Source of the DNA: an uncultured Sphingomonadales bacterium
GTDB lineage: Bacteria; Pseudomonadota; Alphaproteobacteria; Sphingomonadales; Sphingomonadaceae
Assembly: GCA_937863505.1 (NCBI GenBank)
Contig: CALMGC010000051.1
Span: 1 to 32,961 of the forward strand
Length of the DNA stretch: 32,961 nucleotides
Reading direction: 5' to 3'
This document shows positions 16,982-25,036 of this stretch, piece after piece. The position numbers and the translations under genes are program-made. Within the stretch, counting starts at the first letter, position 1; every line of letters starts with the position of its first letter. Under the pieces are notes generated by a model. The model had not been told where the DNA came from and ran no database searches. It saw only the letters and a list, made by a program, of their open reading frames with translations.

Positions 16982-18244
16982 TTAATGAAGCGTTCCCGTC
17001 GCCTCGCCCGCCGCGCGGAACATCGCCAGCACCGTCGCGATCTGCTCGGGTGTGTGCTCGGCGCAGAGCGAGCAGCGGAGCAGGAAGGTCCCCGCCGGCG
17101 TCGCGGGCGGACGCGCCATGTTGACGTACAAGCCGCCTTCCAGAAGCGCCTGCCACATCGTCACCGCCTGTTGCTGGTCGTGGAGGATCACCGCGACGAT
17201 CGCGGACTGCGGCGTCGCCGTGCCGAGCGTGAAGCCCATTTCGGTCAGCCCCGCGTGAAGCGCGCGCGCATTGTCCCACAAGCGGCGGCGCTTGTCGTGC
17301 GCGAACATCAGCTTGCGGATCGACGCGGCGGCGGTGGCGACCACCGACGGAGGCAGCGAGGCGGTGAAGATATACGGGCGGCAGGCGAGCCGCATCACTT
17401 CGAACTTGGGATGGTTCGACACGCAGAAGCCGCCCACGGTGCCGACCGACTTGGAAAAGGTGCCGATGACGAAATCGACCTCGCCCTCCAGCCCCTGTTC
17501 CTCATACACGCCGCGCCCGTTGGGGCCGTAGAACCCCATAGAATGCGCTTCGTCGGACAGCGTCATGGCACCGTGTTTCTTCGCGACAGCAACCATTTCC
17601 GCCAGCGGCGCGACGTCGCCGAGCATCGAATATACGCCCTCGAGCACGACGAGCTTGCCCGCTTCCCTAGGCAGGCGGGACAGGCGACGATCGAGGTCCT
17701 CGACCGAATTATGGCGAAACCGCACGACCTCCGCATTGCCGAGCGCGCAGCCGTCATAAATCGACGCGTGGCTGTCCGCGTCGAGGATGATGTACTCGCC
17801 CTTGCCCGCGATCGTCGACAGGATGCCGAGGTTCGCCTGATAGCCGGTCGAGAACACCATCGCGTGCCGCGCGCCGTAGAACGCCTTTAGCGCCTCCTCC
17901 GCTTCGACATGGTCGCGAAAGGTGCCGTTGAGCATCCGGCTGCCGTTGGTGCCCGTCCCGAACCGGTCGAGCGCGTCCTTGCCCGCCCGGATCACGTCGG
18001 GGTCGAACGTCATGCCCATGTAATTGTAAGTGCCGAGCAGGATCGTCTTCCTGCCGCGGATCACCGCCTCGGTTGGCGAGGTGACCTCGTCCATGACGAT
18101 CCCGAACGGATCGCGCACCCCCGTCGCGAGCAGCGCCTCGCGCTCGGCGATGAGCGGGTCGAACTTGGAGAACAGGTCGCGCTCGGGAGCGACCGGGGCC
18201 GGGTCGAGCGTCAACGCCTCCGCTTGAAAGCCTGCCTCCGTCAT
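16982..18244 (-). CDS. spt: Serine palmitoyltransferase
   Basis: 420 aa; ILLGTYNYMGMTFDPDVIRAGKDALDRFGTGTNGSRMLNGTFRDHVEAEEAL...LSDEAHSMGFYGPNGRGVYEEQGL...VIGTFSKSVGTVGGFCV; close to Sphingomonas SPT as recalled. Confidence 0.96.
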   Translation of the reverse strand: MTEAGFQAEALTLDPAPVAPERDLFSKFDPLIAEREALLATGVRDPFGIVMDEVTSPTEAVIRGRKTILLGTYNYMGMTFDPDVIRAGKDALDRFGTGTNGSRMLNGTFRDHVEAEEALKAFYGARHAMVFSTGYQANLGILSTIAGKGEYIILDADSHASIYDGCALGNAEVVRFRHNSVEDLDRRLSRLPREAGKLVVLEGVYSMLGDVAPLAEMVAVAKKHGAMTLSDEAHSMGFYGPNGRGVYEEQGLEGEVDFVIGTFSKSVGTVGGFCVSNHPKFEVMRLACRPYIFTASLPPSVVATAAASIRKLMFAHDKRRRLWDNARALHAGLTEMGFTLGTATPQSAIVAVILHDQQQAVTMWQALLEGGLYVNMARPPATPAGTFLLRCSLCAEHTPEQIATVLAMFRAAGEATGTLH

Positions 18245-18483
18245 GCGGTGAGCTTGCCCACCGCATCGACGAGCTGGCCCACCGTCTCGATCTCCGCCTG
18301 CATGTTCATGGTAATGACGATATCGAACTCGTCCTCCACCGCCGCCACGAAGTCGAGCACGGTGAGGCTGTCCCATTCGAGGTCGCCCTGGAAGGTGGTC
18401 GCCTCGCTCAGCGCGACGCCCTTCTTGTTGAACGGCTCAATCTGGCGCGCGACGGTGTCGAAGATGTGCTGGCGGTCGGTCAT
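18241..18483 (-). CDS. Acyl carrier protein associated with serine palmitoyltransferase
   Basis: 80 aa; DLEWDSLTVLDFVAAVEDEFDIVI carries the phosphopantetheine DSL motif; 4-bp overlap with spt. Confidence 0.93.
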   Translation of the reverse strand: MTDRQHIFDTVARQIEPFNKKGVALSEATTFQGDLEWDSLTVLDFVAAVEDEFDIVITMNMQAEIETVGQLVDAVGKLTA

Positions 18484-22525: not shown

Positions 22526-22900
22526 ATGGAAGTGATCAAATTCGGATCGGACGACCTGGAGAACAGGCTGGCCACGGACCCGTCGCGCGCCGAGCTGCTG
22601 CCGTTCGGGGCCATCATGGTCAACCAGCAGGGTGACGTGATCCGCTACAACCACGTCGAGTCGGGGATCAGCGGGCGCAACCCGGGCGACGTGGTCGGCA
22701 AGAACTTCTTCAACGACGTCGCCCCGTGCGCGAAAGGGCAGGCGTTTTATAATCACTTCTTCCGCGCCGTCGCCGACGGCCATGTCAACACCATGTTCGA
22801 CTACCAGTTCGACTACAAGATGCAGGCGACCAACGTACGCATCCACATGAAATCCGCCGATGCCGCCCGCGGCATCTGGATCTTCATCAAGCGCGTCTGA
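22526..22900 (+). CDS. pyp: Photoactive yellow protein (PAS-fold blue-light receptor)
   Basis: 124 aa; MEVIKFGSDDLENRLA...LPFGAIMVNQQGDVIRYNHVESGISGRNPGDVVGKNFFNDVAPCAKGQAFYNHF...NTMFDYQFDYKMQATNVRIHMK...IFIKRV. Collinear with recalled Halorhodospira PYP, retaining chromophore Cys (DVAPC), Tyr42, Glu46 and Arg52 equivalents. Confidence 0.95.
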   Translation: MEVIKFGSDDLENRLATDPSRAELLPFGAIMVNQQGDVIRYNHVESGISGRNPGDVVGKNFFNDVAPCAKGQAFYNHFFRAVADGHVNTMFDYQFDYKMQATNVRIHMKSADAARGIWIFIKRV

Positions 22901-22928
22901 GCGTGCCGCCTCTCTGGAGATCGAAGCA

Positions 22929-23306
22929 ATGAAAGAGACACCTATCGAGAGGGCGGGCGATTACGACTCCGACCTGTTCTCGCCCGAGGAGTTGGAGATG
23001 ATGCACGGCGCGCAGGGCGTGACGGAAGAAGCGGACTTGCACCACGACGCGGTCGAGTTGCAGCGGCAATACGCCGCGCTCGCGCGCATGGTGGCGGAGG
23101 GCGGCGAGCGCGAGCGGCAGCTGCGCGCGCTGGTCAACGAGCTGAGCCTCCTCGCCAAGGCGAACGAGCAGCAGCGTTCCTATCACGAGCAGACGCAGAA
23201 CCTCGCCCGGCTGGTGCTGGCGAGCAGCGAGCGCGAGCTCCACCTCCAGCAATGTCTGGAGGCGGTCCGCAACGTCGCGTTGACGCGCGTCCGCAACATC
23301 GTCTGA
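22929..23306 (+). CDS. Small coiled-coil/helical protein of unknown function, downstream of pyp
   Basis: 125 aa MKETPIERAGDYDSDLFSPEELEMMHGAQGVTEEADLHHDAVELQRQYAALARMVAEGGERERQLRALVNELSLLAKANEQQ...; 28-bp gap to pyp. Confidence 0.75.
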   Translation: MKETPIERAGDYDSDLFSPEELEMMHGAQGVTEEADLHHDAVELQRQYAALARMVAEGGERERQLRALVNELSLLAKANEQQRSYHEQTQNLARLVLASSERELHLQQCLEAVRNVALTRVRNIV

Positions 23307-23319
23307 GCCGAGCGACCCC

Positions 23320-23829
23320 ATGCAGACTGCGACCCAAGCCGCCGCTTCGCCCTTCCGCGAGCTGCGCCACCTCGACCAGCAAGCGCAGGACCGGCTCGCC
23401 GACCTCGGTGCGACACTCGCGCCGATGCAGGCGCTGAAGCGCACCGGGCGTCGCCCGTTGCTGTTCAACGGCACCACCGTCGCGACGATGTGCGGGGTCA
23501 CCCCGGCGCTGCCCTTCTGGTACGAGTTGAACGTCCACCGGACGGTGATCGGCAGCTATGTCAGCGACATCCGGCTGTTCCACAAATCCCCCGACCTCCA
23601 CGACCTGTTCTGGGTCGAGGAGCATGACGAGCTGGAAGCCGTGGTCAGCTATCTCGAACGCTACGACCCGGCGGGGGACGTCGGCGTACCGCGCGAGATG
23701 ACGACGCGCGCAGGCTCGCCGGCGGAGCTGGCGCTGTGGACGGCGCGGTTGCAGATGCAGGTCGATGCGATCACGCAGCACTACCGCGCGCTGGCGGGCG
23801 AGCTGTTGCACACGCTCACCAAGGGGTAA
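23320..23829 (+). CDS. Conserved-looking protein of unknown function, pyp operon
   Basis: 169 aa MQTATQAAASPFRELRHLDQQAQDRLADLGATLAPMQALKRTGRRPLLFNGTTVATMCGVTPALPFWYELNVHRTVIGSYVSDIRLFHKSPDLHDLFWVEEHDELEAVVSYLERYDP...; 13-bp gap to the preceding gene. Confidence 0.75.
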   Translation: MQTATQAAASPFRELRHLDQQAQDRLADLGATLAPMQALKRTGRRPLLFNGTTVATMCGVTPALPFWYELNVHRTVIGSYVSDIRLFHKSPDLHDLFWVEEHDELEAVVSYLERYDPAGDVGVPREMTTRAGSPAELALWTARLQMQVDAITQHYRALAGELLHTLTKG

Positions 23830-23865
23830 GGCGCACTCCTCTCCTTGGTGGGGAGGAGCCTTACC
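23825..23865. terminator. Bidirectional terminator-like hairpin spanning both convergent stop codons
   Basis: Outer GGTAAGGC(23825-23832)/GCCTTACC(23858-23865), inner CTCCTCTCC(23836-23844)-TTGGT-GGGGAGGAG(23850-23858). The TAA of the 169-aa gene and the TAA of the ligase both lie in the stem. Confidence 0.7.
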
Positions 23866-25036
23866 AGTCCGCGGGCTTCCCCATCGCGTTGACCGGTAAC
23901 GCCCCGCCCAGCGCGAAGCGGCGCGGGCGTTCGGGCGCGGAAAGGCGGTCGCCGCACCAGCGGTCGAGATTGCCCAGCAGCGCTTCGTCCTCGGCGCCCA
24001 CCGGCACGACAAACGCCTTCAACCGCCCCGTGTCCGCCTCCAGCCGCACCACCGCGTCCGCCACCCCGGCATGGGCGAGCAGGGTGTCGCGCACCCGCGC
24101 GGGAAAGACGTTGACGCCGCCGACCTGCACCGCGCCGTCGCGGCGGCCCTCGACCACAAAGTGCCGCTTGCCGAGCCAGCGGAGGTGATCGGGCACCCCG
24201 GCCGCGAGCCGGGTTCCATCGGCCAGCAGCCGTTCCAACCGCCCGTCCTGTGCGGACCAGCCGTCCAGCAGTGTATAGGCCGCGCCCTCATGCTCGCGCA
24301 CCGCGACGCCGCCCGTCTCGCTCGACCCATAGACCTCGACCAGCCGTTCCAGCCGTTGCCCGCGCAGGCGATGCGCGAGCTGCGACGGCATCGGCGCGGT
24401 TGAGGTGACGCCGGTGACGCCGTCAGGAAAGGCGAGCAGCGAGCGGGCGAGATAGGCCCAGTGCGTCGGCGTCCCGATCACCAAGGTGGCCGGCGCGGCG
24501 GCGCGCACCGCTTCCGCGCCCGTCACCTCGACCAGCTCGCACCCGAGCAGGTCGGGGAGCAGCGCGGTGAAGATCGCGCCATAGATGTGATGTCCCGGCA
24601 CCAACGCGACGACGCGGCGGGTGCCCGCGAACCGCGCCGCCCAGCCGTCCGCTTCCGCGCTAAGATCGGCGATCGCGTGGGTGCAGCGCTTGGGCTCGCC
24701 GGTCGACCCGGAGGTGCGGAAGGTCAGGTGCGTTCCCGTCGCCGCCAGTGATTGCTCGATCAGGTCGCACCAATCACCGACGCTCGGCAGGGCGAGCAGG
24801 TAATCCTCCACGCCGTGCTCGTGGAGATGAAAGAATTCGTTAAGCGCGGAGGCGACGTCGAGCCGTTCGAGGCTGTCGAGATCGAGCCCGCCCTCGTCGA
24901 CCCGCGTGGCCTCGCTCCAGCCCGCCCGCCCCAGCGTCGCCGCCGACCGCCCGCGCGACCGCGCCAGCTCGGCGGCGAGGAGGTCGAGCACGAGCCGCCG
25001 CACCGCGCGACGCGACAGGACAGGGGTGGACGCCAT
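23861..25036 (-). CDS. AMP-forming acyl/aryl-CoA ligase with N-terminal carrier-protein-like domain; probable p-coumarate-activating enzyme for PYP
   Basis: N-terminal GGLDLDSLERLDVASALNEFFHLHEHGVEDYLLALPSVGDWCDLIEQSL (ACP-like DSL); A-domain motifs LTFRTSGSTGEPKRCTH, LVEVYGSSETGGVAVRE, VEGRRDGAVQVGGVNVFPARV, LPVNAMGKPADW. Confidence 0.85.
   Translation of the reverse strand: MASTPVLSRRAVRRLVLDLLAAELARSRGRSAATLGRAGWSEATRVDEGGLDLDSLERLDVASALNEFFHLHEHGVEDYLLALPSVGDWCDLIEQSLAATGTHLTFRTSGSTGEPKRCTHAIADLSAEADGWAARFAGTRRVVALVPGHHIYGAIFTALLPDLLGCELVEVTGAEAVRAAAPATLVIGTPTHWAYLARSLLAFPDGVTGVTSTAPMPSQLAHRLRGQRLERLVEVYGSSETGGVAVREHEGAAYTLLDGWSAQDGRLERLLADGTRLAAGVPDHLRWLGKRHFVVEGRRDGAVQVGGVNVFPARVRDTLLAHAGVADAVVRLEADTGRLKAFVVPVGAEDEALLGNLDRWCGDRLSAPERPRRFALGGALPVNAMGKPADW

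Follow-up and report, generated by a model that had tools for sequence, protein, structure and literature searches.

Photoactive yellow protein (PYP), a bacterial blue-light sensor, is a textbook photoreceptor. In published accounts, its chromophore pathway runs via p-coumaroyl-CoA (PMC12826048, PMC6273459). A locus in which pyp lies beside a ligase gene with an apparent acyl carrier protein (ACP) domain raises the question of whether the chromophore is held on the ligase itself and passed from there to the photoreceptor. We analyzed this locus in a 32,961-nt stretch of DNA (the window) from an uncultured Sphingomonadales bacterium. A sequence-only reading of the window had proposed a p-coumarate-type ligase with an N-terminal ACP-like domain, and had suggested that direct delivery to the PYP cysteine, should the domain be phosphopantetheinylated, would be a distinctive route.

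The ligase open reading frame is located where that reading had placed it, and the adenylation motifs and carrier pattern that it quoted (GLDLDSLERLDVASALNEFF, TSGSTGEPK, YGSSETGG, GRRDGAVQVGGVNVFP and a terminal GK) are all present in the protein. The assignment to p-coumarate-type ligases is confirmed by the TIGR02372 model (PYP-associated 4-coumarate--CoA ligase family), which scores above its cut-off (Table 1). The match spans residues 6-387, so the N-terminal region belongs to the family model. The Pfam AMP-binding domain (PF00501) covers residues 108-247, and AMP-binding_C matches residues 318-387 slightly below its cut-off. The P-loop, A5 motif, A8 hinge (GRRDG) and C-terminal lysine (K387) of ANL adenylate-forming enzymes are all present, as is the genetic linkage to PYP that is typical of TIGR02372 proteins. 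The product of the tail-to-tail pyp gene retains the chromophore-site residues Tyr, Glu and Cys (YN..ES...APC in the alignment).

Table 1. Coordinates of the ligase gene, its predicted functional sites, neighboring genes and one degenerate homologue (window positions unless a locus is named)
Feature	Position	Strand	Evidence or remark
PYP-type 4-coumarate ligase (pcl), 391 aa	23861..25036	-	ORF from ATG; TIGR02372 351.8 bits (cut-off 334.7); N-terminal ACP domain and short ANL adenylation core
ACP-fold domain, residues 9-100 (helices 9-28, 55-69, 71-80, 86-100)	24737..25012	-	family profile, AlphaFold2, VIA-align
Ser55 codon AGC, predicted phosphopantetheine site in D54-S55-L56	24872..24874	-	D-S kept in 52/52 intact homologues
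ATP P-loop (A3) TSGSTGEPK, residues 108-116	24689..24715	-	sequence; PF00501 108-247
A5 motif YGSSETGG, residues 236-243	24308..24331	-	Y236, G237 and E240 invariant in family alignment
A8 hinge motif GRRDGAVQVGG, residues 297-307	24116..24148	-	R298 and D300 invariant in family alignment
A10-type lysine K387, predicted catalytic for adenylation	23876..23878	-	50/52 intact homologues, remaining two gapped; missing in degenerate L050
Photoactive yellow protein (pyp)	22526..22900	+	TIGR02373 156.9 bits (cut-off 143.05); tail-to-tail with pcl
Uncharacterized ORF between pyp and pcl	22926..23306	+	no Pfam/NCBIfam match; 56% identity in L037
Uncharacterized ORF between pyp and pcl	23320..23829	+	no significant family match; 44% identity in L037
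Degenerate PCL homologue	L124:6314-7636	+	between AI-2E-type transporter and Crp-type regulator

The N-terminal domain was compared with carrier proteins at the level of sequence and of predicted fold. A domain search suggested by the sequence-only reading gave a divided answer: the adenylation domain was recovered by PF00501, and the carrier model PF00550 yielded no row for the window ligase at E <= 10 in a single-sequence Pfam search. Across the family, PF00550 matched 2 of 31 members, weakly (best E 0.061). However, a profile built from the 31 N-terminal domains recovered ACPs as all of the best 60 of its 98 matches to PDB sequences, with a best E-value of 3.7e-5. An earlier profile of 12 Sphingomonas N-domains gave 83 matches among all PDB sequences (best E 5.9e-4), and nearly all of the 60 that were listed are named ACPs or ACP subunits of complex I; this profile aligned Ser55 on the carrier serine (LGLDSLD). 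The AlphaFold2 model has the four-helix ACP fold (pLDDT 87), with Ser55 opening helix II. By VIA-align, this model superimposes on Thermus ACP 1x3o with a Z-score of 12.0 (rmsd 1.5 Å, 79 residues) and on the aryl-polyene ACP ApeE with a Z-score of 10.7, and since middling Z-scores may reflect merely a common arrangement in helical bundles, we take the fold result jointly with the sequence profile. Among the VIA-align matches listed, all rows that name a molecule are ACPs, carrier domains or ACP-containing complexes. Foldseek E-values for the 101-residue domain are weak (best 0.046), and the listed rows with probability >0.1 are nearly all ACPs. An approximate PROSITE carrier pattern matches 28 of 42 family members and not the window ligase, and serves as a lead only. 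Because the family profile and the fold searches are positive, we judged the single-sequence PF00550 result insufficient as an argument against a carrier and set it aside. Thus, on sequence and model evidence, the window gene is a PYP-type 4-coumarate ligase with a genuine ACP-fold N-terminus, and its predicted phosphopantetheine site is the DSL serine originally singled out.

We then aligned 54 family proteins, of which 52 are intact; a fragment that starts near a contig edge (L135) and a degenerate homologue (L050) were left out. The set consists mostly of Sphingomonas proteins, with about 18 distinct members from other lineages, including plasmid records of Methylobacterium, Rhizobium, Niveispirillum, Indioceanicola and Caballeronia, and genomes of the window's class and of a second class of the same phylum. 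Two of the loci (L136, L137) encode PYPs that are 77-78% identical to the H. halophila protein. Among the intact homologues, whose N-domains have a median identity of 32% and a minimum of 15%, only the Asp54 and Ser55 columns of this domain are fully invariant. Among the 51 Ser55 codons read, 43 are TCN and 8 are AGY; the presence of both classes indicates that serine was retained across codon-class changes. Among matches with E <= 1e-45, every intact family member recovered has the D-S serine. We therefore rejected a fusion restricted to the window genome, as the D-S carrier domain recurs family-wide. The survey of other PYP-linked ligases proposed in the sequence-only reading shows that they share the fusion, and its claim of distinctiveness fails for this genome: judged by the aligned proteins, the ACP fusion is a feature of the PYP ligase family. 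One Sphingomonas genome (G793) possesses three PCL genes (L037, L047/L128 and C31), one of them with a window-type pyp cluster and one with a cluster of the PYP-like/GGDEF type.

The only full-length homologue without the carrier serine is an open frame found at L050/L124. In this protein the P-loop is replaced by KAAARDE, and the terminal Gly-Lys is absent together with the D-S serine. No PYP relative was detected in the 14 kb examined around the gene. Its product is a possible pseudoenzyme. Together with the strict conservation of the carrier serine elsewhere, its loss where adenylation appears to be lost supports, as a single case, the predicted use of phosphopantetheine by the intact enzymes.

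In their genomic context, these ligases are linked to pyp genes. All 21 intact loci with long flanks (12 from a pattern scan, 8 plasmid records and L125) encode a PYP or a PYP-like PAS protein of divergent sequence; of 12 additional loci with short flanks, 10 have a PYP gene next to the ligase gene. Genes for GGDEF or EAL proteins usually adjoin the pcl and PYP-like genes at the long-flank loci, and the chromophore cysteine is kept in the aligned PYP-like proteins.

Beyond the family, the highest TIGR02372 scores in a phylum sample (about 107-130 bits, over the core only) belong to ligases whose open frames span 430-770 aa. The ligases at L123 and L117 adjoin ApeI-like or FabA-like dehydratases, in the case of L123 also a carrier gene and an ammonia lyase; the L126 ligase neighbors LolA-like, MMPL and acyltransferase genes, and the L127 ligase lies beside an ACP. 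By gene content, these four neighborhoods are of the type found in aryl-polyene clusters, where the literature gives ApeH the role of an acyl-ACP synthetase (PMC8041823). In the family-level search, the remaining ANL enzymes score no higher than about 62 bits, for the most part in their C-terminal region; the exception is L004 (88.6 bits), whose frame runs well beyond the ligase, as in ApeH-ApeI fusions. In a tree of ANL cores, the PCLs form their own clade (support 100/100), apart both from the ApeH clade and from the other ANL enzymes; as the tree is unrooted, it shows this clade and not its sister group. The comparison suggests descent of the PCLs from ACP-charging ligases.

Several known systems share parts of this architecture. 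The window ligase matches the TIGR02372 family model over its full length, including the N-terminal region, and shares the linkage to pyp; the family name and the literature found describe a CoA ligase and make no mention of a carrier domain. ApeH-type synthetases are adenylate-forming like PCL and are among the next-best profile matches. ApeH loads its aromatic acid on an ACP that is a protein of its own (PMC8041823), and it retains an N-terminal region where PCL has the fused ACP. The type II ACPs AcpP and ApeE have the four-helix fold, the D-S-L serine and the conserved Glu and Phe of helix II in common with the PCL domain, which differs in its fusion to an enzyme, its conserved Trp40 and Trp89, and a divergence that leaves single sequences below Pfam detection. 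FadD22 is an A-T module for p-hydroxybenzoate with a C-terminal carrier. Adenylation-carrier fusions that charge hydroxycinnamates are already known as well, as the A-T module of FnsA takes the place of 4CL for p-coumarate (PMC9606254). Both modules resemble PCL in joining adenylation and carrier in one chain and in activating a hydroxycinnamate or hydroxybenzoate; however, their C-terminal carrier feeds a polyketide synthase, whereas the carrier of PCL is N-terminal and its presumed acceptor is the cysteine of a photoreceptor.

From these observations we infer phosphopantetheinylation, self-loading and direct hand-off to PYP. In the proposed scheme, the most economical one in our view, the adenylation core would form p-coumaroyl-AMP, and an AcpS-type phosphopantetheinyl transferase of the cell would convert the ACP domain to its holo form at Ser55. 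The thiol of the Ser55 phosphopantetheine would then accept the p-coumaroyl group, either in cis or, if the enzyme is a dimer, in trans. Finally, trans-thioesterification would move the chromophore from this enzyme-bound thioester to the conserved cysteine in apo-PYP. The window genome possesses a single phosphopantetheinyl transferase, an AcpS-sized PF01648 protein of 150 aa. In the predicted models, only about 3 residues separate helix IV (ending at residues 98-100) from the first core strand (from residue 103), and the ACP domain may thus need a dimer or a large movement to reach its own active site. We give the full mechanism, a self-loading p-coumaroyl carrier ligase that delivers to the PYP cysteine, an even chance of being correct. 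The broader proposition, that PYP-type ligases as a group carry p-coumaroyl on a phosphopantetheine of their own and load the photoreceptor cysteine from it directly, bypassing free CoA, is put forward more tentatively, at slightly less than even odds.

The same enzyme might be an ordinary CoA ligase, whose free p-coumaroyl-CoA reacts with PYP, while the ACP-fold domain would dock to PYP or a partner and the serine would cap helix II. This would agree with the published pathway (PMC12826048, PMC6273459), and with FlxY, a flexirubin 4CL that is also unlike plant 4CLs and produces p-coumaroyl-CoA in vitro (PMC3992019). An Arg-Pro-Lys/Arg patch of the CoA-binding kind at residues 370-372 is mostly retained among the 52 intact homologues (R370 in 46, K/R372 in 38) and resembles the Arg/Lys patch of CoA ligases (PMC8460268); together with the published CoA accounts, it weighs against the full mechanism and leaves the bypass of free CoA a hypothesis. 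However, docking alone need not fix the D-S pair in every intact member at such low identity and through both serine codon classes, and the degenerate homologue has lost the serine together with its catalytic motifs. We consider the docking explanation rather unlikely, though a serious contender.

It can also be speculated that the holo domain is charged but acts as a store of the intermediate, or as a donor to CoA, to a second carrier or to a signaling protein of the operon, and not directly to PYP. The mixed operons that combine PCL genes with GGDEF/EAL genes and divergent PYP-like PAS genes are in line with such a role; yet a PYP or PYP-like cysteine protein near every intact long-flank locus is the simplest acceptor, and another destination seems improbable to us. 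Finally, the ACP fold could be a relic that bears no phosphopantetheine and has taken the place of the N-terminal ANL core segment to stabilize the protein. Indeed, the core starts almost directly at the P-loop strand in the predicted models, and short carrier-less ANL proteins exist (4gs5), but a relic would be expected to vary at D54 and S55, the very residues that are invariant in the domain, and we regard this origin as improbable as well.

An invariant-serine carrier domain in a dedicated ligase family suggests that the chromophore donor may be a protein-bound thioester. If correct, the self-loading mechanism would account for the targeting of a reactive thioester to a single cysteine. 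It would also be one of few cases in which a carrier mediates chromophore insertion, and would be relevant to PYP-based tags, where PYP is made or charged with added ligases. Neither an N-terminal carrier domain of PYP ligases nor delivery to a photoreceptor from such a carrier was found in the open-access papers searched.

Several additional features of these loci and of the window genome were observed. The four-gene set of the window recurs at L037, where PCL is again convergent to the other three genes. Among the loci examined, only L037/L078 share the two uncharacterized ORFs located between pyp and pcl, which are possible PYP signaling partners. The PYP-like PAS proteins encoded near pcl at L038-L048, L107-L109, L112-L114 and L125 are about 24-38% identical to the window PYP; the chromophore Cys is kept, mostly in a QCMNNFMVAQRFE motif, and the Tyr and Glu are mostly kept. 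Some of these divergent proteins are annotated as 'phosphonate transporter', others as hypothetical or PAS proteins. Second PYP-like domains occur in longer open frames at two loci that already possess a PYP or PYP-like gene (L111:8075-9079 and L040:612-1694). The window genome has a single aromatic ammonia lyase gene, truncated where its contig ends (G000:C179:40-798, L116), which is a candidate source of p-coumarate; its LVYHLASGVG segment (YHL motif) is presumably tyrosine-lyase-like. Finally, the window encodes a stand-alone acyl carrier protein (18241-18480, minus strand; PF00550, 33.6 bits) that adjoins a PLP-dependent aminoacyl transferase-like ORF, an arrangement that we take to be that of sphingolipid synthesis clusters.
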